Source: Magnetococcales bacterium
Lineage (GTDB): Bacteria > Pseudomonadota > Magnetococcia > Magnetococcales > Magnetaquicoccaceae
Reading direction: 5' to 3'
DNA: 64,000 bases
Assembly: GCA_015231915.1 (NCBI GenBank)
Contig: JADGAR010000006.1
Location: 1 to 64,000, forward strand
In this document: piece after piece, positions 1 to 49,330 of the stretch
Layout of the letters: each line of letters begins with the position of its first letter
Numbering within the stretch: the first letter of the stretch is position 1
The notes under the pieces: generated by a model
The model's input: only the letters and a program-made list of their open reading frames with translations
The model's database searches: none
Told to the model about the DNA's origin: nothing
Program-made: the position numbers and the translations under genes

Positions 1-2240
1 TACAAGCTGCAGCTCGATCTGGGGCGCAGCAGCCAGCGGTTTCGCCGTTCGAAAATCTGCTTGCGTATCTCGAACGCCTCACGCAGGGATTTCTTGTCCT
101 TGAGGGCCTCCAGGGCATCGGCCAGCGAATCCATGGTCTCGAAGGTGTAGGGATGCTGCGGACCCAACACCTGTTCGTCCAGTTCCAGCGCCTTTCTGAG
201 CAACTCCTCGGCATCCCTGGGGCGACCGGTCTCCACGTACAGGGCGCCCAGATCCCGCATGGTGCGCAACACGTCCATGTGACGCTCGCCCAGCACCGAC
301 TTGCGCAAGGCCAGGGTCTTTTTGAAGAGTTTTTCCGCGACCTCTTTCTCCCCCAGTTTGTGGCGCACCCTGGCAAGGTTGTTCATGGCCTTGAGGGTCT
401 TCTGATGGGCCTCGCCGTAGGTCTCGGTCCACTGCCCCATCACCTTCTCGAAGAGCGGCGCAGCCTCCTTGTAGTTGTGCTGCAACATTTGCAGATAGGC
501 CAGATTGTTGACAAAGGCCACTGCGTCCGGGTGTTTTTCGCCCATGCGCTTGCCGGCAATGGTGATGGCGCTGCGATAGAGCGGCTCGGCCTTGTCGAAG
601 TTGCCCTGGCTTTCGTGCAGCAAAGCGAGGTTGTTCAACATGGCCAGGGTTTCCGGATTCTCCTCGCCCACCAGTTTCTGGGAACTCTTCAAGGCGGCGC
701 GCAACAAAGGCTCGGCCTGGTCGTACAGCCCTTCGTTCTCGAACACCAGCCCCAGATTGTTCATGACGTTGATGGAGGCCTGATGTTCCGACCCCAACAG
801 GCGCCGATACTCGTCCAGGAGCGCGGCGTAAAGGGTTTCGGCGTCATGCAACCGCCCCTGGCGACGATAAACCCCGGCCAGGCGGCTGCGGGTGGCCAAC
901 AGATTGGGATGCTCCGCGCCGAGGAGCGCCTTCTCACCCTCCAACACCTCGTTGAGCAAAGGCTCGGCCTTGTCGTACTCCCCGGAGTCCTCGAACACTT
1001 GCGCCATGGCACCCTTGGCCTCCAGCAGGGTCTGACGCGCCGCCGGCTCCTTGGCGGCCAGGGCGATGACCTCCTCCAACTCCTTGCGGGCCTCGTTGAA
1101 ACGGGCATCGCGGCGCAGGAGTTCCGCAGCCTCGATGCGCGCCGCCAGGGCCACCGGATCACTGGCGGGCAAAGCCGCCTTGTAGATCCGGCTCGCCTGA
1201 CGGTAAAGCTTCAACGCCCCGTCCGCATCCCCCTTGCGGCCACGCGCCATGGCTTGCAGGGTCAGGCATTCCGCCCCCTGGGGATGAAACGGCCCCAGCA
1301 TCTTTTCGAATTTGCCGCAAGCCCCTTCCAACCATTGAAACGCCTGCTCGATATCCCCGCCGTTCAACAAGGAACGGGCATACGCCAGACCCGCCGCCAA
1401 GGTCAGGGGATGTTCCGCGCCCACCGCCGTCACCCAGCCGTCCCGCATCGCCTTGCGGATCCCCGCAGCCTTGGTCAGATCCCCGCCGGCCTCCGCCAGA
1501 TCGGCCTGCAGTGCCTGAACCTGCAACAACTCCGGGTGATCCGCGCCCAGCAGCGTGCTCCCCAGAGTCACCGCCTTTTCCAGCCCTGCGGCAGCCTCCG
1601 CGACCGCCCCGGCCTGGAACTGCCGCACCGCCAGATCCCGCAGGCTGACGAAAACCGCGTAATGCCCCTCGCCGAAATTGGCCTGGGCGAAGGCCAACGC
1701 CTGCGCAGCCCCCTTGACCGCTCCTGCGGCATCCCCCTTGGCCAGCAGCGTGGCCGACTCCTGGGCGATTCTGGACCACTCTGCGGCGGCCCGCCCCTTT
1801 TCGGGGGGAAACGCGGCGACCTCGGCCACCTTGGCGGTGAATTTTTCCGGCAGCGCGCCCCGCAACTCGGCGATGGCATCGTTGTATTGGGCCACATCCG
1901 CCTGCTTGCCCGCCTCGCCCGCCAGACGCACCACCTTGAGCAGGGCGTCCAGGGCCTGCTCGTTCTTGCCGAGCTTGCGGTTCAACATGGCGATGGAGTG
2001 GAGATAATCCGCATTCTCCGGGGCCAGGTTGGCGGCCTTGACGAAATGGCTCAAGGCGGTGGGCAGGTCGTTTTTCGCCACCGCCTCCTTGGCCAACTGC
2101 GCCTCCTTGGCTGCCGGATTTCCGGACGCGGGTGCGACCTGCTCCGCAGACCAGACGGACGAAGACCAGGCCAAGACCGCCCCAAGCAAACACACCGGCC
2201 AGATCCTGGCACGGATCATCCCCTCGCCAGCAACGCCCAT
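1..2240 (-). CDS. TPR (kinesin light chain-like) repeat protein with N-terminal signal peptide; 3' end beyond window start
   Basis: Minus-strand frame from ATG at 2240 (MGVAGEGMIRARIWPVCLLGAVLAWSSSVWSAEQ...) is open to base 1 with TPR-like units; listed ORFs here are shadow frames. Confidence 0.75.
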   Translation of the reverse strand, partial: MGVAGEGMIRARIWPVCLLGAVLAWSSSVWSAEQVAPASGNPAAKEAQLAKEAVAKNDLPTALSHFVKAANLAPENADYLHSIAMLNRKLGKNEQALDALLKVVRLAGEAGKQADVAQYNDAIAELRGALPEKFTAKVAEVAAFPPEKGRAAAEWSRIAQESATLLAKGDAAGAVKGAAQALAFAQANFGEGHYAVFVSLRDLAVRQFQAGAVAEAAAGLEKAVTLGSTLLGADHPELLQVQALQADLAEAGGDLTKAAGIRKAMRDGWVTAVGAEHPLTLAAGLAYARSLLNGGDIEQAFQWLEGACGKFEKMLGPFHPQGAECLTLQAMARGRKGDADGALKLYRQASRIYKAALPASDPVALAARIEAAELLRRDARFNEARKELEEVIALAAKEPAARQTLLEAKGAMAQVFEDSGEYDKAEPLLNEVLEGEKALLGAEHPNLLATRSRLAGVYRRQGRLHDAETLYAALLDEYRRLLGSEHQASINVMNNLGLVFENEGLYDQAEPLLRAALKSSQKLVGEENPETLAMLNNLALLHESQGNFDKAEPLYRSAITIAGKRMGEKHPDAVAFVNNLAYLQMLQHNYKEAAPLFEKVMGQWTETYGEAHQKTLKAMNNLARVRHKLGEKEVAEKLFKKTLALRKSVLGERHMDVLRTMRDLGALYVETGRPRDAEELLRKALELDEQVLGPQHPYTFETMDSLADALEALKDKKSLREAFEIRKQIFERRNRWLLRPRSSCSL

Positions 2241-2261
2241 AGTGCCCTCTCTGAAAAAAAA

Positions 2262-2564
2262 TTATGGATTGTTCTTGATTTTTTCGATCTCTTCGCGCAC
2301 CAGCCGTTCCGCCACATCCGGCAAGGCGTCCCTTGCCATGTCACGGACCATTTCCCTGGCGATGCGCTCCACCCGGGGGGCGAACGCCTCCCGGATCAGA
2401 CGGGAGAGCGCCTCCCCCTGGGGAAGCGCCATCTCCTCCGCACGGATGCGTTGAATCTCTTCATCGATGACCTTGCGGGCAATTTCGGGCAGCAGGGTGC
2501 GCACCAGTTCCCGCATCGCCTCTTTTGCGGATGAAGAAAGATTTGCAGTCAGGGTCTCTTGCAT
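2262..2564 (-). CDS. Small charged alpha-helical protein (C-terminus ALPDVAERLVREEIEKIKNN, weakly like PopZ/DUF2497-type ends)
   Basis: ORF with internal start MQETLTANLSSSAKEAMRELVRTLLPEIARKVIDEEIQRI; family similarity by eye only. Confidence 0.55.
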   Translation of the reverse strand: MQETLTANLSSSAKEAMRELVRTLLPEIARKVIDEEIQRIRAEEMALPQGEALSRLIREAFAPRVERIAREMVRDMARDALPDVAERLVREEIEKIKNNP

Positions 2565-2690
2565 GCGTGTCGTGCTCCCTTGGTCGATGCGATTCGGATC
2601 AGGGGCATCATAACACCTTCCTGGCGGCGAGTGATATCGATTTTTTGTCAGCCGATCGAAATCGCCCGACACATTGAGGTTGGGGCGGGA

Positions 2691-2984
2691 TCAACCCAGC
2701 AGGGTCTTCAGGATGGGAAGGACGGTGACGACGATGATCAGCGCCAGCATCCATTTGATGACGGCCAGATCCATGCGGATGGGGGCGAGTTCCTTTTCCA
2801 GCTTGTTTTCCAGCTTGGCTTCGAGTTCACGCAAATCCCCCTTGGTCGCCAGTTCTCTCAACTGGGCGTCCTGGGCTTCCTTGAACACCTCGGAGAACGC
2901 CTCCGCCTGCTTCTCCTCGACCCCGGCATCGCGGAGCCTGCGGACGAATTTCAGGGTGTCGAACGTCGCTGTCATGGCGGTCAT
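2691..2984 (-). CDS. DUF1640-like coiled-coil protein with C-terminal TM helix
   Basis: FDTLKFVRRLRDAGVEEKQAEAFSEVFKEAQ...LATKGDLRELEAKLENKLEKELAPIRMDLAVIKWMLALIIVVTVLPILKTLLG. Confidence 0.7.
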   Translation of the reverse strand: MTAMTATFDTLKFVRRLRDAGVEEKQAEAFSEVFKEAQDAQLRELATKGDLRELEAKLENKLEKELAPIRMDLAVIKWMLALIIVVTVLPILKTLLG

Positions 2985-3111
2985 GGCAGTGTCCTCGCAA
3001 CGGGTGGATGACATGGGCAGAATAGCACGATTTCTTCAAAGATCCAAAATATTGTGCGACCGGAGGACGATGCCTCCGGTCGCGAGGATTTCACGGCGAT
3101 CGGTTGGACGA

Positions 3112-5464: not shown

Positions 5465-8400
5465 ATGCCTTTCGCGCCACGCACCTTGCGATCCCGCATC
5501 CTGCCGCTGCAAATCGCCATCGGACTGCTGCCCCTGCTCGTGCTCGGCGGCTGGACCTGGGACCAGACCACGACCATCATCCTGACAGGCCGCATCGCGG
5601 GATTGGCCGAAATCCGCGATGCCAAGAAAAGAGAAATCGAACTCTATTTCCAGGAACGCCTGGGCGACCTGATGCTCCTCGGCAAGGACGAACGGGTCAT
5701 GCGGATCCTGGATCCCGCGCATGCATCGCGCAACAACCAACCCCGCTGGCTGGAAAAATACAAGGCAACCTATCGATATCACGACATCATCCTGACCGCC
5801 GCCAGTGGCAAGGTGCTGTTCAGCATGCTCGACCGCGGGATCGCCGGAGAAAATCTCACCCATGACACCCTGGCGCACAGCGCTCCGGGCCGGGTGTTCG
5901 CGGCAGCCGGACAGAAGGCCACCGTCCTGGACGCCATGACCGAATCCAAAACCAGCCCATGGCAGGGAGTCTATCTCGGGATGCCCATGCACCTCGACGA
6001 TGCCTTCCTGGGCATAACCATCTTGCAGATTCCGCCGGAAATCATCGAAGAACGCATCGCAACGACTTACACACTCGGCACGCAAGGAGAGATCTTCATC
6101 GTGGGCAAAGCCGACGGGGCCGCCACCTTGCGCACCAACCGCCACCCAGGTCAGGGCCAGGCCGGCGATCCGTTCGGCTTCGCCGGGTTCGAGGATGCCT
6201 TGTCGGGCAGCCACGGGATCAAACGGCATCTGGACCGCAACGGCGTGCCCGTGCTGACTGCCCATGCCCCTCTGGCCATCCCCGGCCTGGATTGGATCCT
6301 GGTGGTCCAGACCCCCCTGGCAGAGATCGAGGCCCCGGTCCGGCAATGGGCGACGCTGTTCGCCGCTTTTGCCTGTGCGCTGCTGCTGGTTTCGGCCTGG
6401 CTCGCCTGGCTTTTGGCGCGCAATCTGGCCGCCCCGGTCGTTGCCCTGGCCCATGCCGCCGGAGAGATCGCCAGGGGCCAACGATCCGCCCGTGTCCATC
6501 TGGAGCGCACGGACGAAATCGGACAACTGGGCGAGGCATTCAACCGCATGGCCGAGGCCATCGAGACCGAACACTGGCTGAAGGGGACCAGCACCCAAAT
6601 CCGGGATCTGACGAACACGCTGGCCAGCGAAGAAGTAATCAGCCAGGCCGTGATCACGGCCCTGGCCCACGCCGTGAATGCCGGACAAGGGATCCTGTTC
6701 CTGCACGACGAGGAGGACGGACGCTATCATCCGGCAGGCCGTTTCGCCTGCCCGGCAACGCCGGACATAGGCTTTGCGCCCGGCGAAGGGCTGGTGGGAC
6801 AGTGCGCCCTGGAAAAACGCACCATCCGGCATGCGGACCTCCCCCCCGACTATCCGCACATCGGCTCCGGGCTGGGAGCAACCGGAAAAACAGACCTGAT
6901 CCTGGTCCCGATCCTGGCAGGAGGCAAGACGGCCCTGGGCGTTCTGGAACTGATCGCCTTTCACCCCTTCACGACTCCCCAAGCCGCATTGTTGGAAGGG
7001 ATCGCCCCGGCCCTCGGCCTCACCCTGGAACGGGCGCGCCAGTCCAGGCGCACCGCCGCCTTGCTGGAGGAGGTGCAAAGACAGGCCATGGAACTGGCCG
7101 TGCGGGAAGAGGAACTGCGCACCCAAAGCCACGAACTGGCCGCCTCGGAAGAGGAAATGCGCTCCCAGAACGACGTGCTGCGCGAAACCAGCCGCAACCT
7201 GAAGGAGACCAACGCCGAACTGGAGGCGGTCAGCCGCTACAAGTCCGAATTCCTCGCCAACATGTCCCACGAGTTGCGCACGCCATTGAACAGTATTCTT
7301 ATTATTTCCGGCAACTGGCTGGAAAACGGTTCGCGCAATCTCACCGACGACCAGCTCACCTCGGCACGCATCCTCCAGGAGAGCGGCCAGGAACTGTTGC
7401 AACTCATCGATGGCATCCTCGACCTCGCGAAGATCGAGGCGGGGAGGATGGATTTCGCGCCACAGGCCGTCGATACCCTGGAATTGCTGGAAGAGGCGCG
7501 ACGCGGCTTTCTGCCGGTGGCCGAGAAAAAAGGGCTGGAGTTCGTGGTGGAGCGGGATCCCTCCCTGCCGGCCAGCGCGCGGCTGGACCGGCCACGGGTA
7601 TTGCAGGTGTTGCGCAATCTGCTGTCCAATGCCTTCAAGTTCACCGAACGGGGCCGCGTGACCCTGCGCCTCGGGCAGGACGACAAACTGCCCGCAGGGT
7701 GCCTGCATGACCCGGCGCCGGAGAACACGTCGGGCCATCTGCTCTTTGCGGTGAGCGATACCGGCATCGGCATCCCGCCGGAGCAGCGCTCCCTGATCTT
7801 CGATGCCTTCCGGCAACTCGACTCCGGCAGCGACCGCAAACACGGCGGCACCGGTCTGGGACTGTCGATTTCCAAATCGCTGGCGGAGTTGATGCACGGA
7901 ACCTTGTGTCTGACCAGTATCCAGGGTTCCGGGAGCTGCTTCACCCTGGCGCTGCCGCTGGAGGTGGTCGAGGAGGAACCGACGCCAGGGCAACAGCGGG
8001 TCCTGGTGCTGGATGGCGATGCCGGCTTCCGGGCGCGGCTCGTCGAACGAACCCGCGACCTGCCGGTGGCACTGGAGTTCGTGGAGCACCTGGAACAGGC
8101 CCTGCAACATCTGACCCGGACCCCCGGGGATTGCGTGATGGTGGACCCGGAACGGTTGGGCGCGGATACCGAACATGCGCTGCGGCAACTGCGACAGGGC
8201 AGCAGGGAGCTGATTCTGTGCGCCTCCGCCCCCATGGATCGGAAGCGCTGGTCGCATCTCGACCCGTTCGTGGACCGCATCGTGATGAAGGAGGGGCCGG
8301 AGGCGCAACGGATGATGGAGGAGATCATGCTGCTGTTGCGCAATCCGGAACCGGACGCCTCCACGCCGCCGCCCCCCATCCCGCGCCTGGCCGAGGGCGG

Positions 8401-29247: not shown

Positions 29248-30522
29248 ATGCCAATGAACAAACATGACAAGAAACCATTGATTCAATCCATTCAGGTTCG
29301 GAATCTGCTTTCGTTCGGACCGGATACGCCTGCAATGAATCTGCGTTCCCTGAATGTCCTGATTGGCGAAAATGGAGCCGGAAAATCCAATTTGATTGAT
29401 GTCATTGGCATTCTTCAAGCTGCGCCCACGAACCTTCTGATCCCCTTCAAGGGGAAAGCGTCTGGTGGCATTGCGGAATGGTTATGGAAGGGCGGCCATG
29501 GAGAGTCGGACAGTGAGCCTGTTCAAGCCTCGATTGAAGTACAACTGCACCATCCTGACACGCGTAAAGAAATCTTATTAAGACACAGACTCTCTTTTTC
29601 TGTGGCTGGACAAAAACTCGAATTGACGGACGAGGCCGTTGAAGATGCCCGTCCAGAACAGCAATATCATCATGACGTTCGTTTTTATTATCGCTTTCAG
29701 AGTGGTCGCCCGGTCCTGAGCGTATTTGCCTCGGATGAGGAGGAGGATGCGGGACGACAGCGTGGCAAGAGGGAACTCAAAAAGCAGGACGTGTCATTTG
29801 ATCAGTCGATTCTTTCTCAACGCAAAGATCCGGATCAGTATCCAGAGATCACCTATATTGCGAAACAATACACAGGCATCAAACTTTATCGCGAATGGCA
29901 TTTAGGGCGTAATGCACCACCCCGGCAACCGCATCCCTCCGACATGCCAGGCGACCATCTCAATGAAGACGCCAGTAATCTGGTTTTGGTTCTCAACGCA
30001 TTGGAGATGAATCCCCGTGCTCGCGAACGGTTATTGGACAAGATCAAGGAATTCAATGGCCGTTTTACGCGCATCTACCCAAAAGTGGAAATGGGGTCCA
30101 TTCAACTGTACCTGGAAGAAATCTTGTCGGCAGATACCAGACATTCCGCATTGATTCCCGCGAGTCGACTGTCCGATGGCACCATGCGATTCTTGTGTCT
30201 CCTGGCTGTGCTTTGCCATCCCAATCCTCCACCCCTGGTGTGCATCGAGGAACCGGAAATGGGGCTTCATCCGGATATTCTGCCTACGGTTGCGCAGTTG
30301 CTTCTTGAAGCCTCCGAGCGCACCCAACTGATTGTCACAACCCACTCCGACATCATTGTCGATGCGTTGACGGAAACCCCGGAAGCTGTTGTCGTCTGCG
30401 AGAAACAAAATGGCCAGACGCGAATGCGGCGCCTGGAACAAAAGGATTTGCAAGCTTGGATCACGGACTACCGCCTGGGTCAGGCATGGTTGAATGGCAA
30501 AGTTGGAGCCACCAGATGGTAA
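29248..30522 (+). CDS. AAA family (RecF/OLD-like AAA_21) ATPase without TOPRIM (start 29248 or 29254)
   Basis: IQVRNLLSFGPDTPAMNLRSLNVLIGENGAGKSNLIDVI; LVCIEEPEMGLHPDILPTVAQLL; LIVTTHSD. Confidence 0.9.
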   Translation: MPMNKHDKKPLIQSIQVRNLLSFGPDTPAMNLRSLNVLIGENGAGKSNLIDVIGILQAAPTNLLIPFKGKASGGIAEWLWKGGHGESDSEPVQASIEVQLHHPDTRKEILLRHRLSFSVAGQKLELTDEAVEDARPEQQYHHDVRFYYRFQSGRPVLSVFASDEEEDAGRQRGKRELKKQDVSFDQSILSQRKDPDQYPEITYIAKQYTGIKLYREWHLGRNAPPRQPHPSDMPGDHLNEDASNLVLVLNALEMNPRARERLLDKIKEFNGRFTRIYPKVEMGSIQLYLEEILSADTRHSALIPASRLSDGTMRFLCLLAVLCHPNPPPLVCIEEPEMGLHPDILPTVAQLLLEASERTQLIVTTHSDIIVDALTETPEAVVVCEKQNGQTRMRRLEQKDLQAWITDYRLGQAWLNGKVGATRW

Positions 30523-30774
30523 CCGTGAAGCTGTATTATCGAAGGAGGTGGAGAGAAGGATCAGGCAGGCAAGGATCTCCCGATCAAAATTTTTGCCATT
30601 TTGGAGCCTCCGGATCCAGAAAAGGTTGCGAAGGCATCTCCTTGGGCTTGCCGCCTATTGCGGACTCTTGCAGACAAACTCAAGGCACCATGCAAACAAA
30701 AATGGCAAAACTGTTCCATTCCAATTATTGCGCGCCCGTCAACGGAATCTCCGCCCCATCAATGTAAAGATTGA
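30516..30774 (+). pseudogene. DUF4276-like remnant, partner of the upstream ATPase (frameshift and probable internal deletion)
   Basis: ATG overlaps the ATPase stop: MVTVKLY then +1 to IEGGGEKDQAGKD...FAILEPPDPEKVAKASPWACRLLRTLADKLK; start and end resemble DUF4276 termini, middle missing. Confidence 0.55.
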
Positions 30775-31051
30775 CATCCGGCGCAAACATCCCCTGCTTG
30801 ATGGTGACCAGCCCCTTGCGGCCATTCACCTGAAACGGGACCTTGTGCAGCCCGCCCATGCCGCTGACACGACCGGAGCCGACATCGGCGGCATCCAGGA
30901 CCACCCGGTAGACACTCACCGTGAAATCCTGCTGCACCTCGACGGCGATCTCATGGCCGTCGTAGCGGGCCAGCCAGACGCCGTTCACCCCGGCGAGGGC
31001 ATCGCACGACAAGAACCCCCACAGCGACAACGCCAGCCAAAATGTTCGCAT
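30725..31051 (-). CDS. Small secreted protein of unknown function
   Basis: MRTFWLALSLWGFLSCDALAG signal peptide then ~88 aa mature part; listed ORF extends further upstream out of context. Confidence 0.6.
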   Translation of the reverse strand: MRTFWLALSLWGFLSCDALAGVNGVWLARYDGHEIAVEVQQDFTVSVYRVVLDAADVGSGRVSGMGGLHKVPFQVNGRKGLVTIKQGMFAPDVNLYIDGAEIPLTGAQ

Positions 31052-31217
31052 CCCACACGCCTCCTCTTCAGAACAACTCCCTGGTATACCCCTTGCCCGC
31101 CTCCACCGGGGAGGCGCCCGTGCCGACGAACACCGCCCCGAAAAGAAATCCATGGGGCAGCATCATCCCACAGGTGCCTGTCTGGCCCGCCACCCCGCCA
31201 GATCGATCACCGGCTTG
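31029..31217. repeat. Duplicate of the parC 3' end plus adjacent downstream sequence (copy A)
   Basis: Near-identical to 31609-31798 at ~580 bp offset, e.g. CCCACACGCCTCCTCTTCAGAACAACTCCCTGGTATACCCCTTGCCCGCCTCCACCGGGGAGGCGCCCGTGCC. Confidence 0.9.
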
Positions 31218-31259
31218 TGCCATGGTCAACAGCATGCGGGCGGTTTCAAGATCGCTCAT
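31068..31259 (-). pseudogene. HEPN-domain N-terminal remnant (MSDLETARMLLTMAQ) fused to duplicated parC tail
   Basis: ATG overlaps MNT stop as in MNT-HEPN operons; after ~15 codons the sequence becomes parC tail ([33 protein letters not shown]). Confidence 0.65.
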
Positions 31260-31581
31260 ACAGCACCCGCCCTTCTCGCAAGGCCTGATGCACCAGATGA
31301 CAGCTTGCTCCCCGGAATTTCTCGATCTCCTCCCGACTGTAAATCAGGATATCCGCAGCCACAGGAAAACGCATCATGGCCCTTGCCAATCGCGCCATCT
31401 CCCGGTAACGGCTGCGCTCCGGGCCGAAGGGGGCGGACTCCACGACCAACAGATCGATATCGGAGTCGCTTTGCGCCTCGCCACGGGCATGAGAGCCGAA
31501 GAGGATCACCTGTTCCGGGTCCGCCATCTCGACGATGATCCGGGTCGCTTCTTTCAACAGATCCGCAGTTTCGGCGTTCAT
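31246..31581 (-). CDS. MNT-type minimal nucleotidyltransferase (MntA-like antitoxin)
   Basis: VILFGSHARGEAQSDSDIDLLVVES motif; start MNAETADLLKEA. Confidence 0.88.
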   Translation of the reverse strand: MNAETADLLKEATRIIVEMADPEQVILFGSHARGEAQSDSDIDLLVVESAPFGPERSRYREMARLARAMMRFPVAADILIYSREEIEKFRGASCHLVHQALREGRVLYERS

Positions 31582-43040: not shown

Positions 43041-44047
43041 GGCCCCTGGCGAAATGGTTCTGTGGGTTGCTGCTGTTTGCGCCGGTCGTGGGATGGGCGG
43101 CTGGGGTGGACGAGGAGGTGTCGGCGTTGTTGCGGGAGCGGGCGTTCTGCGCGCCCAACGAGACCTTTCCGCCGCCGGCAGGGTGGCTGGAGCGTCCGAT
43201 CCGTTATGATCAATGGGCGCGGCGCGCGGATGTGGCCATTTCGTTGGACCAGCAGATTCATCAACTGTTGCACCCTCTGATCAAGGCTTACGCGCAGGCG
43301 AAGGGGCTGGACATCCCGACCCAGGAGGGAAATTGTGGTCTCTCCTCCGGGCAGGTGATGCGCAAGCAGGTGGACATTGCCGGCTATTGTTGTCCGCCGG
43401 GCCGCTCCGACCGGCTGCCTGGGGTGAGTCATCACACGCTTGGGATTGCGAGTATTGCGATTCTGGTGCATCCGGACAATCCGTTGCGCAACCTGTCGCT
43501 CAAGCAGGCCCGGACCATTTTCCGGGGTCAGGCCCATTACTGGTCGCAATTCCTGGACGGTTCGGGACAGCCCGGCCCCCACTGGCCGATTCAGACGATC
43601 GGTCGGTTGCATTGTCGGCTGCGTCCGGGTCACTGGCGTGCGTTGCTGAAGGAACCGGACGATTTCAGTCCGCGCATGGAGGAGGTGGGGACCATTTCGG
43701 ACATGCTGCAACGGATCATGGCCCAGCGTGGCAGCATCGGTTACGAGACCATGTGGCATGTGGACCGTTACAAGGGGGTTGGCCGCCCCAGGGCGCTCAC
43801 CATCGACGGCCACGCCCCGGATGAAATGGCGGCGTTGTCGTCCGGTCATTATCCCTTTTATCATGTCTTCAATCTGACGCTCTGGGAGGGGACGCTGGCC
43901 AATCCCCATGCGCGCGAACTGGTCAAACATCTCATGGAGGCGGTGGAGAAGATGGACCCGGCCAGCAGCATGGTGTCGGCCAGCGCCTTGCGCAAGGCGG
44001 GGTGGCGGTTTCAGGGGAACGAGCTGATCGGGGAGCCGGAGAAATAA
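43037..44047 (+). CDS. Periplasmic PstS/PBP-like substrate-binding protein (GTG start)
   Basis: Signal peptide LAKWFCGLLLFAPVVGWAAG; LGIASIAILVHPDNPLRNLSLKQARTIFRGQ; GSIGYETMW. Confidence 0.7.
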   Translation: MRPLAKWFCGLLLFAPVVGWAAGVDEEVSALLRERAFCAPNETFPPPAGWLERPIRYDQWARRADVAISLDQQIHQLLHPLIKAYAQAKGLDIPTQEGNCGLSSGQVMRKQVDIAGYCCPPGRSDRLPGVSHHTLGIASIAILVHPDNPLRNLSLKQARTIFRGQAHYWSQFLDGSGQPGPHWPIQTIGRLHCRLRPGHWRALLKEPDDFSPRMEEVGTISDMLQRIMAQRGSIGYETMWHVDRYKGVGRPRALTIDGHAPDEMAALSSGHYPFYHVFNLTLWEGTLANPHARELVKHLMEAVEKMDPASSMVSASALRKAGWRFQGNELIGEPEK

Positions 44048-45048
44048 TGTATACCAAGCTCTTACTGGAGAATTTTACCGTTTTTCAAGAACTGGCCATG
44101 AACTTTTCACCAGGGATCAATGTATTTATCGGCGCCAACGGCACTGGAAAGACTCATATTTTAAAACTTCTCTATTGTTTACAAGGGAGTTGCCTCCCTA
44201 ACCAGCCGCCATTGGAAAAAAAACTGGGCACGGTGTTCAGGCCGGAAAATAATGATTTCAGACGACTGACCAGACGCCGCCCCGGAGGGATCTCCACACA
44301 CATCCAGGCCGCGTGGAACGGGGAGGCCATGGACGTTTCCTGGCACACTGCTTCACCGTCCCTGAATTTCGGAGCCTGCAGAATGGTTCCGCCGGAGCCG
44401 CCGGTCTACATCCCGGTCAAGGAGGTACTCTCCTTCGCGCCCGGCTTCATCTCGCTGTATGACAAGTACGAAATGGCTTTCGAGGAGATTTATTATGATA
44501 TTTTGAAGCTTGCCTATCTGCCGGTCAGAAAGGATCGGCGCGTCGAGGAGGACCAGAAACTGTTGGACCAGATCGGCGAACGGATCGGCGGCAGGGTCGT
44601 CATGGAGGGAGACCGCTTTTTCGTGCGCTCCCGCAATGCCAACCTGGAGATGCATCTGGTGGCCGAGGGTTATCGCAAGCTGGCGCTGCTTTGGCAACTC
44701 ATTCACAACGGCGCCTTGATGGAGGGCGTCACCCTGTTCTGGGACGAACCGGAGGCCAATCTCAACCCGTTCTTGATGCAGGAAGTGGTCAAGATTCTGG
44801 TCATGCTGGCCAATCGGGGCATTCAGGTATTCCTGGCCACCCACAACTACGCCTTGCTCAAGGAGTTGGATCTGAGCAAAGAGGCAGCATCCATCACGTT
44901 TTTTGCCATGGATGACGCCGGGGAACAAGGTGTCACGGTCAAGCCGTGCCGCCACTACGCGGACATCTCTCCCAACAAGATCGCGGACGAGTATCTGCGC
45001 CTGTACGACCAGGAGATCCTGCGGACCTTGCAGAGGACGCGGCCATGA
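44047..45048 (+). CDS. AAA family ATPase (AAA_21/ABC-like), first gene of two-gene operon
   Basis: MYTKLLLENFTVFQELAMNFSPGINVFIGANGTGKTHILKLLY; VTLFWDEPEANLNPFLMQEVV; VFLATHNYALLKEL; TAATG junction upstream. Confidence 0.9.
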   Translation: MYTKLLLENFTVFQELAMNFSPGINVFIGANGTGKTHILKLLYCLQGSCLPNQPPLEKKLGTVFRPENNDFRRLTRRRPGGISTHIQAAWNGEAMDVSWHTASPSLNFGACRMVPPEPPVYIPVKEVLSFAPGFISLYDKYEMAFEEIYYDILKLAYLPVRKDRRVEEDQKLLDQIGERIGGRVVMEGDRFFVRSRNANLEMHLVAEGYRKLALLWQLIHNGALMEGVTLFWDEPEANLNPFLMQEVVKILVMLANRGIQVFLATHNYALLKELDLSKEAASITFFAMDDAGEQGVTVKPCRHYADISPNKIADEYLRLYDQEILRTLQRTRP

Positions 45049-45584
45049 CCTCCTCCGCGAGTGTCTGGGCGGAAAAGGATCTCCGGATTGATTTTGCCGG
45101 GGCTGTGGCTGTGTTTTCCCTGGACCAGCACGGCAAGGGTCATGGTTTGACCCATCGATTCAAGGGGGTGGACATCGTTGTGGAATGGCAAGATGCCATC
45201 TGGCTGGTAGAGGTCAAGGATCCTGAGAACTCCCGCATTCCTCCACAACACCTGACAATGCAGCAAAAAAATTTTCAGGAAACGGTGGCGTCGAAATCCC
45301 TGATCGAACAGGAACTTTACCCGAAACTGATCGACACTCTGCTGTTTCTGGCGCTGGATCGGGGCATTCCCGCCAAGCCTTTGCGATATTTTGCCATCCT
45401 TTGCCTTTCCAGCCTGGATCCGGTCCAGTTGAGCCATTTGCAGGACAAATTGCTGCGACACGATGGCGACTGGCTGAAGGGTCCTTCCGAAGGCTGGGGC
45501 AAGGCGTTTTCCGCACACATATTCAATCTGGAATCATGGAACCGGAATTTTCCCAAGTATCCGTTAACCCGAATCGGCGGTTGA
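45045..45584 (+). CDS. PD-(D/E)XK nuclease-like protein, second gene of operon
   Basis: D43...E56-V-K58 in FKGVDIVVEWQDAIWLVEVKDP; ATGA overlap with ATPase. Confidence 0.65.
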   Translation: MTSSASVWAEKDLRIDFAGAVAVFSLDQHGKGHGLTHRFKGVDIVVEWQDAIWLVEVKDPENSRIPPQHLTMQQKNFQETVASKSLIEQELYPKLIDTLLFLALDRGIPAKPLRYFAILCLSSLDPVQLSHLQDKLLRHDGDWLKGPSEGWGKAFSAHIFNLESWNRNFPKYPLTRIGG

Positions 45585-45764
45585 TGGTGTGTCGGTCTGG
45601 CGTTTTTCCTCGCGAAACGGATCCGGCTTGATCACTTTTTTAATGATTTGCAATGGCTTCTCCGGTACGCTCCTGGCCGCTTCGGCGGCCAGGAGGCGTT
45701 CCCCGCGCAGGTTGATCTGCTTGAACAGTTGATCAATGAACAGGTCCGTTTGTTCGACAATCAT
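45564..45764 (-). CDS. Possible 66-aa protein of unknown function
   Basis: ATG preceded by GGGGGGAAGG; MIVEQTDLFIDQLFKQINLRGERLLAAEAARS; no recognised family. Confidence 0.35.
   Translation of the reverse strand: MIVEQTDLFIDQLFKQINLRGERLLAAEAARSVPEKPLQIIKKVIKPDPFREEKRQTDTPSTADSG
45670..45695. other. Perfect 11-bp hairpin with TTCG tetraloop
   Basis: CTCCTGGCCGC-TTCG-GCGGCCAGGAG; no T tract on either side. Confidence 0.8.
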
Positions 45765-45941: not shown

Positions 45942-48900
45942 ATGCCACTTAACATTTTCATCTCCTATGCGCATAAGGACGAGGCGTTCAAGGATGCGTT
46001 GATCGAACACCTGCGCGATCTTGAAAACAGCGGCCTCATTCAGCCTTGGACCGACCGGGTGATGGAGATCGGGGATGAGTGGCAAAAGAGGATCCAGGAG
46101 GCCATGCAATCCTGTCACATGGCGCTCTTCCTGGTCAGTTCCTCGTTCAACGCCTCCTCCTTCATCCGCGCACGGGAACTGCCCACCTTGCTGGAACGTT
46201 GGGAAAAGGAGGGCATCGACATCGTTCCCATCATCATCCGCCCCTGCCGATGGAACACTGGCCCATTGGGAAAATTCCTCTCCTTGCCGAAGGATGGGGA
46301 GCCGGTCAACAAACATACAAAAGGCAGCTACGAGTGGGACAAGGCATGGACGGACATTGCGGAAGCCATAGCCAAAAAGGCGGAAAAATTTCGTGAGGTC
46401 ACCGAACCGGACGCTTTTGTGACGGCGTATCGCAAACGTTTCCATGGCAAATTCCAGAAATGGGACCTGGCCCATACCGGAGTGGTGCAGGCCGGTGGAG
46501 CGGGCGCGCCGATCGAGGCCGGGCTGGAGGAGATGTACACCCCGTTGCGCATGGGAGAAGAATACGACATTGAAGAACTTGATCATGGGGCCATCATTGC
46601 CCCGGATGATCTCAAGGTGCGAAAAAAACCATTGATCGTCAAGGGGATCGCCGGATCCGGCAAGACCACCTGGTTGCGCTGGACCTTCCGCAGGATGTTG
46701 TCGGATCCGGAGGTGTTGCCCCTGTTCGTGGAACTGCGCACCCTGGCGAAAAACTGGTCGGAAGTGAAACCGGGAGAACGCTCCCTGGACCATTTTCTTG
46801 CCACGGAACTGGCCGACAACGGCCTGCCCGACCGCGCCGGGGATCTGACCCGTCTGCTGAAAGACCAGAATGGCCCCCGGCCCGTGCTGCTGGTGGATGG
46901 CTGGGATGAGTTGGGTGAGATCGGAAAAGCGTTCCGGGACAAGCTGATGGGGTTCCTGAAGGCCCATCCCCGCGTCCTGGCGGTTGCCACCAGCCGGCCT
47001 TATGGCGAGGGGCGGCCATCGCAGGCCGAGAATTTCGAGACGCTGGAGATTCAACCCCTGAACGACGAAGAAATCCGGCAACTGAGCGACAAATTTTTTC
47101 GGCACTGTGATGGCCAGGATGGGCAGGAGCACAAACGATCCATGGAGGGATTCCTGGCGGCGTTGACCCACTCCCAGGATGCCCAGACCCTGGCCCGCAC
47201 CGCCCTGCTGTTGACCATGATGCTGCTCATCAGCCGCCACCACCCCCTGCCCGACAAGCGCCACAAGCTCTATCAGGTCTGCATCGAAAATCTCCTGACC
47301 GCCCTACCCAAACGCAAGGAAGAACAAGGCGCCCGCATCGGATCGGACCGGTGGCGACCCAAAAACAGCGACGAAAGAATGCGTGCCGTGGCCAGGATGG
47401 CCTATCATGCCAAAGGGCAAGGCGGCGAAGATGACCAGGGTCGCATCGTGCGCACGTGGGAGGAACTGGAAAAGGAACTACCGCAAGAGTGGACCCACGC
47501 ACAACGACAAGGTTTTCTCCTCTGGCTCGCCGGCCCCGCCGGACTGCTCAACGACCGCAGCGACGGCACCCTGGTCTTTGTCCACCTGAGTTTCCAGGAG
47601 TTTCTCTCCGCATGGCATCTCAACGCCACGGTGGAAGGGGACGAAAACCGTGCCAGAGTCTTTCTGGAGCACAGTAAAGATCAATCATGGTGGGAGACCT
47701 TGCGCCTGTGGGGCGCCCTGGTGGAGACGGCCAACCCATCCCGCATGGAACCGGTGTTTCAGCAATTGATTGAAGAGAAAGACTCCGGCCTCTGGTGCGC
47801 CGGGGCCATGATGGCCGATGGTCTGGGCGCCACATCACTGGAAAACTGGTCCCGCCAGGCTGCGGATCGGGTCGTGCAGGCATGGAGTGAGGAGGCGGAA
47901 CGCTGTTTCCAGGCTTGGGGCGCCAGCCGCCAGGAAGCAGCCAAAAAGACGATACTGAAAAACGCCCTGGACAAAGCGGCACTGAATACAACCTGGCTCT
48001 CCTGGTTCCGCTTCAAACTGGTAACAAAAATTGCATATTTGGATCCCCCACCGACTTCACAACATTGGAGTGCCGGCACACTGCTGTCCGCCATGGATCG
48101 TCCGATATTACCTAAGCATTGGGCCATCGGACGTATCCTCTCCGGTGTCACGCCCCATTGGCCAGGTTTGGACGAACCATGCATTCCACTCCTGCAACTC
48201 TGGCCTGGGCAGCGCCGTCTGGCTGGGATCCGGTTACAATCTTTCGCTTCACTCAACACAAACCGTAGCACATTTCTGTCGCTGTCTAAAAAAATAATTT
48301 TATTGCCAATTCCAATGCATGAGATATACGAAGCAGAAGAAGTCGCATGGCATTCCCCCCCCACCAGCTCACACGAGATAACAAACCATTTTATACGAAA
48401 AAATATCATAAGATACACCGAAATTACATTAGCAAGCAAAATGACATATGACTACAAAGACCTTGAAATATATAATTTTATTATAAATTTAGACTTAAGC
48501 GAAAAAGATTCAAATCATATTGATTTTGCAATAATAGAGCAATGCTCCCTAAACCGAGTAGGCCTTCGTGTTCTCCTCGCTCAAATAAAACCAGCCTCCC
48601 CGCTTCTTGCACTTTTTCACCACGCTGCCAAAGTCTCCGTCGGCTACACGGAACACATGATTCAACTGAAAACCAGCCTAAAAAACTACCAGGGCGACCC
48701 CCTGTGGCCCGCCCTGGCCAGACATGTCGCCCGGTGCTCCACGAATGACGACAAAAAACTCCTGGAAAATCTGGCACAAAACCCGGAACAGAGAGAAGCG
48801 CCTTTGCAATGGGGTCTGAAATACATCGTACGCGGGGACGTGATGCTCAATGACGGGAGCGAAATCACCCTGGATGAGATATGCGACGAACACGGCTTGG

Positions 48901-48950
48901 AGCGGCTCCCCTACCTGGAAGAGATGCCCCCGGAACCGGGATGCGATTGA
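45942..48950 (+). CDS. TIR-NACHT STAND NTPase (bacterial NLR-like, putative anti-phage protein)
   Basis: TIR-like N-terminus MPLNIFISYAHKDEAFKDALIEHL; Walker A LIVKGIAGSGKTTWLRW; Walker B VLLVDGWDEL; VLAVATSRP. Confidence 0.88.
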   Translation: MPLNIFISYAHKDEAFKDALIEHLRDLENSGLIQPWTDRVMEIGDEWQKRIQEAMQSCHMALFLVSSSFNASSFIRARELPTLLERWEKEGIDIVPIIIRPCRWNTGPLGKFLSLPKDGEPVNKHTKGSYEWDKAWTDIAEAIAKKAEKFREVTEPDAFVTAYRKRFHGKFQKWDLAHTGVVQAGGAGAPIEAGLEEMYTPLRMGEEYDIEELDHGAIIAPDDLKVRKKPLIVKGIAGSGKTTWLRWTFRRMLSDPEVLPLFVELRTLAKNWSEVKPGERSLDHFLATELADNGLPDRAGDLTRLLKDQNGPRPVLLVDGWDELGEIGKAFRDKLMGFLKAHPRVLAVATSRPYGEGRPSQAENFETLEIQPLNDEEIRQLSDKFFRHCDGQDGQEHKRSMEGFLAALTHSQDAQTLARTALLLTMMLLISRHHPLPDKRHKLYQVCIENLLTALPKRKEEQGARIGSDRWRPKNSDERMRAVARMAYHAKGQGGEDDQGRIVRTWEELEKELPQEWTHAQRQGFLLWLAGPAGLLNDRSDGTLVFVHLSFQEFLSAWHLNATVEGDENRARVFLEHSKDQSWWETLRLWGALVETANPSRMEPVFQQLIEEKDSGLWCAGAMMADGLGATSLENWSRQAADRVVQAWSEEAERCFQAWGASRQEAAKKTILKNALDKAALNTTWLSWFRFKLVTKIAYLDPPPTSQHWSAGTLLSAMDRPILPKHWAIGRILSGVTPHWPGLDEPCIPLLQLWPGQRRLAGIRLQSFASLNTNRSTFLSLSKKIILLPIPMHEIYEAEEVAWHSPPTSSHEITNHFIRKNIIRYTEITLASKMTYDYKDLEIYNFIINLDLSEKDSNHIDFAIIEQCSLNRVGLRVLLAQIKPASPLLALFHHAAKVSVGYTEHMIQLKTSLKNYQGDPLWPALARHVARCSTNDDKKLLENLAQNPEQREAPLQWGLKYIVRGDVMLNDGSEITLDEICDEHGLERLPYLEEMPPEPGCD

Positions 48951-49003: not shown

Positions 49004-49330
49004 TTAAGATCGAACATACACCACCCGCCCTTCGCGCAGCGCATGCGCGACCACATGGGTTGCGGATCCGGTCAACCGATCCACCTCGTCATGGGAAAAC
49101 AACAAAAAATCCGTGGCCACGGGGATCATGCCCATGGCGTTCTCCAAAGCGGTGTACGCCTGAAAACGGCTGAGACCCGGACCAAAAGTCTCGGAGGCGA
49201 TGACCAGCAAGTCCACGTCGGAATCCGCCCGCGCATCGCCCCGCGCATGGGAACCGAACAGGACGATCCGCTCCGGGGCCACCGCATCCACGATCCGATT
49301 CACCATTGTTTTCAATAATGCCTCATCCAT
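49004..49330 (-). CDS. MNT-type nucleotidyltransferase (MntA-like), orphan
   Basis: IVLFGSHARGDARADSDVDLLVIASE; C-terminus HALREGRVVYVRS parallels first MNT (QALREGRVLYERS). Confidence 0.88.
   Translation of the reverse strand: MDEALLKTMVNRIVDAVAPERIVLFGSHARGDARADSDVDLLVIASETFGPGLSRFQAYTALENAMGMIPVATDFLLFSHDEVDRLTGSATHVVAHALREGRVVYVRS

Follow-up and report, generated by a model that had tools for sequence, protein, structure and literature searches.

RESULTS

Architecture of the locus

The stretch of DNA analyzed here (64,000 nucleotides of contig JADGAR010000006.1 from a Magnetococcales bacterium, referred to below as the window) carries two consecutive genes on its forward strand: gene A (positions 44047 to 45048), encoding an OLD/PtuA-like ABC-type ATPase of 333 aa, and gene B (45045 to 45584), encoding a small PD-(D/E)XK-like protein of 179 aa. 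The two genes share the start/stop tetranucleotide ATGA (45045 to 45048), and their coordinates, lengths and overlap are exactly as first noted from the sequence. The motifs reported at that time were found as well, namely, the Walker A motif GANGTGKT (A residues 29 to 36; 44131 to 44154), in which G29, G34 and K35 are invariant in 26 homologues, the Walker B and D-loop segment LFWDEPEANLNP (A residues 230 to 241; 44734 to 44769), in which the same holds for D233, E234, P235 and E236, and the D43-x12-E56-V-K58 arrangement of B (45171 to 45218), a candidate catalytic hairpin that is followed by a helix containing Lys94 (45324 to 45326). Upstream of A, on the same strand, lies a periplasmic-binding-like gene (43067 to 44047) whose TAA stop codon has one A in common with the ATG of A (TAATG, 44045 to 44049); in the sibling genome G001 (locus L045) the corresponding binding-protein gene and A likewise overlap by 1 nt, and A and B may be transcribed from a promoter farther upstream. 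Both A and B are more than chance open reading frames, since they have family matches with E values of 1e-111 and 1e-64, respectively, and many homologues.

Membership of the HEC-02 family

Comparison with the family models of PADLOC-DB 2.0 assigned A to HEC-02A (PDLC04213; residues 1 to 328 against model positions 1 to 334 of 337, E 4.3e-111) and B to HEC-02B (PDLC04227; residues 5 to 177 against positions 7 to 179 of 184, E 1.8e-64). Both models are matched over almost their whole length, and the pair agrees with HEC-02 in every respect of family membership. The earlier note had taken the pair for an undescribed system; these matches, which are HMM matches to a named system of the kind that the note itself had set against its proposal, remove the novelty and leave the proposed function untouched. 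According to works that cite the 2024 source preprint of Payne et al. (10.1101/2024.01.29.577857), HEC stands for Hma-embedded candidate, and several HECs are reported as active against phages (PMC12988326, PMC12111858); HEC-04, as presented in one of them, is an ABC-TOPRIM fusion active against T4 and T5 (PMC12111858). For HEC-02, no report of function was found in the literature searched, a search that did not include the preprint of Payne et al. Homologues of A-B occur within Hma (L061 and L167), whereas the window copy is standalone and lies outside Hma. We also observed that the component labels of two further PADLOC-DB models look swapped (PDLC04146/PDLC04145): a 344-position model named HEC-02B matches the ATPase and a 170-position model named HEC-02A matches the small protein.

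Gene A, an ABC-type ATPase

The product of gene A matched Pfam AAA_21 (E 1e-19), and its AlphaFold model (pLDDT 89.5, pTM 0.90) was closest in the PDB to PtuA chains (of Septu and of retrons) and to Rad50, with E values of about 1e-14 to 1e-12. Among solved sequences its profile matched PtuA, OLD, Rad50 and AriA chains, and its ABC motifs, which comprise Walker A, Walker B, the signature and the switch His266, are invariant in 26 sequences. The earlier designation of the protein as an AAA ATPase is corrected here to an ABC-type ATPase like OLD, PtuA and Rad50, the Pfam name AAA_21 notwithstanding. The long N-terminal extension of A in locus L104 was considered as a possible fusion and discarded, as the stretch represents upstream sequence outside the gene.

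Gene B, a probable nuclease

The product of gene B had no match in Pfam, NCBIfam or PHROG, and a search of PDB sequences gave none that was significant. Its AlphaFold model (pLDDT 88.6, pTM 0.86) was closest, among solved folds, to the nickase N.BspD6I and the small subunit of R.BspD6I (probability 0.63 to 0.92, E 0.01 to 0.07), with Holliday-junction resolvases lower among the matches, while a viral structure library returned endodeoxyribonuclease I, a restriction endonuclease and resolvases. The top ranks of these fold matches are largely PD-(D/E)XK nucleases with unrelated proteins interspersed, and none was obtained at an E of 1e-3 or below. The best match of the B profile to a solved sequence, weak at E 0.12, was the VRR-type nuclease 4qbn, in an alignment that pairs D43 and E56-V-K58 of B with 4qbn's own motif.

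The D-x12-E-x-K spacing alone is weak evidence, since shuffling of B reproduces it exactly in 4.2% of cases and in a loose form in 85%; given these frequencies, its presence by itself was dropped as an argument for a nuclease, and conservation was relied on instead. Over 34 A-B pairs, E56 is retained in all, D43 in 31 and K58 in 32, and K94 is invariant (34/34), with a dN/dS for B of about 0.2 in intact pairs. Judged by these residues and by the predicted fold, B is a probable, though not a proven, PD-(D/E)XK nuclease.

Coupling and spread of the pair

In a sample of 61 genomes, consisting of the window's own genome and 60 relatives, A was present in 21 and B in 16. Wherever both flanks of a B homologue were visible, B directly followed A, nearly always with the 4-nt overlap; the exceptions in spacing are L061, L099 and L103, which have other spacings, and L039, in which the genes abut, and a piece of B without A was seen in L064. 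The same gene order recurs in Enterovibrio, Xenorhabdus, Halomonas/Vreelandella, Pokkaliibacter, Desulfobacterales, Chthonomonas and Polyangium, and the range of the pair takes in Magnetococcales, Gammaproteobacteria, Desulfobacterales, Armatimonadota and Myxococcota. The gene-neighbor conservation that the earlier note had proposed to check was seen across phyla, with A directly upstream of almost every B homologue examined. The two proteins also diverge together: their pairwise distances correlate with r=0.88 (34 pairs), the largest value in 2000 permutations being 0.35.

Beyond the sample, B was found in 7 of 385 genomes from a different class and in 2 of 72,556 plasmid records, both distant homologues, and in none of the phage records searched. 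A contig scan with a single B sequence as the query returned nothing, whereas the alignment used as the query did find homologues. The genome of the window (G000) contains a further, distant copy of HEC-02 whose B is damaged (L057, at G000:C90:2254-3605), the nearest relative of which outside the genus is L160, an intact-B copy within a type 3 BREX cluster.

Embedding in methylation-based systems

PADLOC scans combined with local searches showed that A-B lies within or directly beside a methylation-based system at 11 of the 44 loci: BREX type 1 in four, BREX type 3 in one, Hma in two, type III restriction-modification (R-M) in three and a IIG-like methyltransferase in one. In type 1 BREX, the gene order is BrxC-A-B-PglX-PglZ-BrxL in L063 and L166 and PglX-A-B-PglZ-BrxL in L046 and L049 ("Ca. 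Magnetaquicoccus inordinatus"); in type 3 BREX it is PglXI-A-B-BrxHII-PglZ (L160). The Hma loci read HmaB-A-B-HmaC (L061) and HmaB-A-B-two genes-HmaC (L167), and the type III R-M loci read mod-res-A-B in Vreelandella (L092) and Halomonas (L096) and mod-A-B-res in L165; in L099, A-B is followed by the type IIG-like methyltransferase. Many of the junctions between the embedded pair and the genes of the host system are start/stop overlaps of 1 to 4 nt. The Hma cases are partly circular, because HEC-02 was named from Hma; this circularity does not extend to BREX or type III R-M. A tree built from 44 A proteins requires 9 changes for the 11 embedded copies, at least 7 of them forced by well-supported branches; the clade of the window's A has four members (98/97) and includes a BREX-embedded copy. 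The other 33 loci, the window copy included, are standalone within the range searched, many of them among housekeeping genes.

As a separate observation, the pair in L099 (Desulfobacterales HSG2) lies within a run of several very large open reading frames of much the same size (1115, 1274, 1212 and 1219 aa), one of which matches type IIG methyltransferases, and frames of 190 aa recur between them; the run is possibly a tandem array.

Decay of B and possible exchange of the effector

B is broken or mutated in its active site in seven loci in which the ATPase core of A is open. The lesions comprise a deletion at the A/B junction that also alters the tail of A (G001:C69), the reduction of B to about 25 codons (G014:C2), a large deletion across the active site (G001:C107), an altered C terminus (G000:C90, the second copy of the window's genome), a frameshift at the catalytic stretch (Xenorhabdus budapestensis) and replacement of the catalytic Lys by Arg (G007) or by Thr (G011:C50). 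Three close copies, G000:C90, G001:C107 and G007, carry three different lesions of B, with a dN/dS of A of 0.10 to 0.17, and A is under purifying selection in the copies tested. Frameshifts seen in draft genomes may reflect errors of sequencing, and the lesions may have arisen recently. Loss or mutation of B with A left open is what would be expected if A restrains B, and it fits a costly effector held by A; the opposite case, a frameshifted A with an intact B, was seen once (L094) and counts against a strict antitoxin-like order of loss.

In one of these loci (L044, in G011:C50) the ATPase gene (1483 to 3054) encodes an N-terminal TIR domain fused to the HEC-02 ATPase (TIR_2, E 7e-17). This single case suggests that the ATPase can be rearmed with another effector.

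DISCUSSION

The window locus is a real, intact copy of HEC-02, a catalogued and functionally unproven defense family. The earlier reading of the pair is borne out in part, in the kind of system proposed and not in its novelty: homology, co-occurrence and genomic context strongly support a defense role. They also support well its division of labor between an ATPase sensor and a nuclease effector, with the nuclease activity of B predicted from its conserved residues and modeled fold.

PARIS offers a functional precedent: it combines an ABC/OLD-type ATPase with a small nuclease, is associated with restriction systems, and is described as a toxin-antitoxin system whose ATPase keeps the nuclease in check until an anti-restriction protein has been detected (PMC11455837). 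It differs in that its effector, AriB, is a TOPRIM protein whereas B is PD-(D/E)XK-like, and in that A is shorter and matches AriA weakly (E 1e-20 versus 1e-111 for HEC-02A); since B matches only HEC-02 models and has no TOPRIM match, membership of PARIS was rejected. Septu (PtuA-PtuB) and the PtuAB pair of retron I-A resemble the locus through the PtuA chains that are the best fold matches of A, but A-B has neither an HNH nuclease nor a retron and the sequence match of A is weak; the absence of an HNH (PtuB) match in B led us to reject Septu. Gabija was likewise rejected, as A, at 333 aa, has no TOPRIM match and no helicase gene (GajB) is adjacent. Lamassu (LmuB-LmuA) consists of an SMC-type ATPase and, in some types, a PD-(D/E)XK-type effector; A, by contrast, lacks coiled-coil arms, and its best PADLOC matches include no Lamassu model. 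The earlier note named no known system that pairs a short AAA_21 ATPase with such a small nuclease. The pairing is not new, as HEC-02 is already catalogued and a 2026 survey of BREX describes OLD-ABC ATPases and PD-(D/E)XK nucleases paired as backup effectors (PMC12839542). As described there, these dyads show the same pairing and the same proposed backup role as A-B; the survey is confined to BREX and related systems, whereas the A-B family occurs also in Hma and in type III R-M clusters, and most of its copies are standalone.

We consider it probable that the window pair is a standalone HEC-02 anti-phage module, similar to PARIS and Septu, in which A restrains the nuclease B until a phage trigger appears. 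Such a translationally coupled two-gene module could work as follows: (i) A, a head-only ABC-type ATPase, would sense infection and hold B, the ATP-bound form assembling into an oligomer that binds and silences B; (ii) a phage factor, plausibly an inhibitor of methylation-based restriction, would change A, so that B is freed or activated; and (iii) B, as a small PD-(D/E)XK nuclease, would cut nucleic acid and abort the infection, probably at the expense of the cell. Weighing against this reading are the fold matches of B, all short of significance, the 33 of 44 loci, the window's among them, that lie outside any recognized methylation system, and the frameshifted A beside an intact B in L094.

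The main rival, to which we give a real but clearly minor share of probability, is that the pair acts as an auxiliary restriction factor: A would load on phage DNA, at ends, replication forks or unmodified DNA, and direct B to cut the invader without cell suicide, comparably to Lamassu- or Hachiman-like and type IV systems. The fold of A is near that of Rad50, PD-(D/E)XK enzymes are usually DNases, and a DNA methyltransferase gene adjoins A-B in most of the embedded loci; auxiliary DNases in BREX have been proposed as well (PMC12839542). However, A and B are both small and have no DNA-recognition domain or coiled coil, the discrimination of self from nonself would be unexplained in the majority of copies, which are standalone without a methyltransferase, and B appears to be costly, to judge by its repeated loss from loci that retain A.

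Two further explanations fare worse. That A-B is a stability module in the style of toxin-antitoxin systems, with B neutralized by A and defense secondary or absent, is improbable: the overlapping genes, the retention of A where B is lost and the description of PARIS itself in these terms (PMC11455837) agree with it, but the recurrent placement within BREX, Hma and type III R-M operons, the scarcity on plasmids and absence from the phage records searched, and the strong conservation of ABC hydrolysis motifs, for which a plain antitoxin has no need, argue against it. Even less credible is a pair serving DNA repair or housekeeping, as a small Rad50/Mre11-like or RecF-like operon, for the Rad50/RecF-like head of A and the many copies among housekeeping genes are outweighed by the patchiness of B (present in 16 of the 61 near relatives and in 7 of the 385 genomes from the other class), a site that varies within the genus, frequent decay and embedding in defense operons.

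The preferred reading, that of a nuclease guarded by its ATPase, bears on HEC-02 as a whole. The family is listed in defense databases, with no mechanism found reported, and the genomic context now provides a testable mechanism, in which the pair serves as a backup guarding methylation-based restriction, analogous to PARIS and built on a different nuclease fold. The repeated independent insertion into unrelated methylation systems, together with the TIR fusion beside a degenerate nuclease, suggests a general design in which one family of ATPase sensors is combined with interchangeable killers. We raise, as a tentative generalization about which we remain doubtful, the idea that HEC-02 might be a portable guard cassette, inserted between genes through start/stop overlaps at BREX (types 1 and 3), Hma and type III R-M loci, that senses inhibition of the barrier and keeps its ATPase constant while its effector is exchangeable, being either the nuclease or, in L044, where the nuclease has no catalytic Lys, a TIR domain fused to the ATPase.

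Neighboring genes in the window

In the window, A-B is flanked by the periplasmic-binding-like gene and a PHP-domain gene, and between the module and the latter lies a gene for a TIR-NACHT protein of 1002 aa (45942 to 48950, forward strand; Pfam TIR_2 and NACHT). The same interval varies within the genus: it measures about 1.7 kb and is free of defense genes in G005, holds other genes in G010 and G009, is occupied by a lone TIR-NACHT gene in G004 (52% identity to that of the window) and in G001 shows TIR-NACHT together with A, a broken B and the binding-protein gene. This variable composition marks TIR-NACHT as a separate neighbor; the adjacency to which the earlier note drew attention is real, and a functional link is not supported. 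A single three-gene system made up of A-B and TIR-NACHT is highly improbable here, and TIR-NACHT was rejected as a third component, for although the genes are adjacent on the same strand in the window and keep that order in G001, G004 has TIR-NACHT but no A-B at this site, and TIR-NACHT is absent from all other A-B loci searched and is still recognizable in G001, where B is broken.

Several other features of the window were recorded. The TIR part of the TIR-NACHT protein matches Thoeris ThsB in PADLOC (E 2e-31). A second ABC-type ATPase (29254 to 30522, forward strand) matches HEC-01A (E 1e-157); the frame that follows it (30494 to 31288) has no PADLOC match, so the partner of HEC-01A may be missing. 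Two small nucleotidyltransferase-like proteins on the reverse strand (49004 to 49330 and 31246 to 31581) both match the PADLOC candidate PDC-S09. Finally, a short reverse-strand frame at 45564 to 45764 and a frame at 6288 to 6488 of L152 begin similarly (DLFIDQLFKQINLRGE and DLLIDQLFKRINLRGE, respectively) in two genomes at this variable site, and they possibly encode a small unannotated protein.
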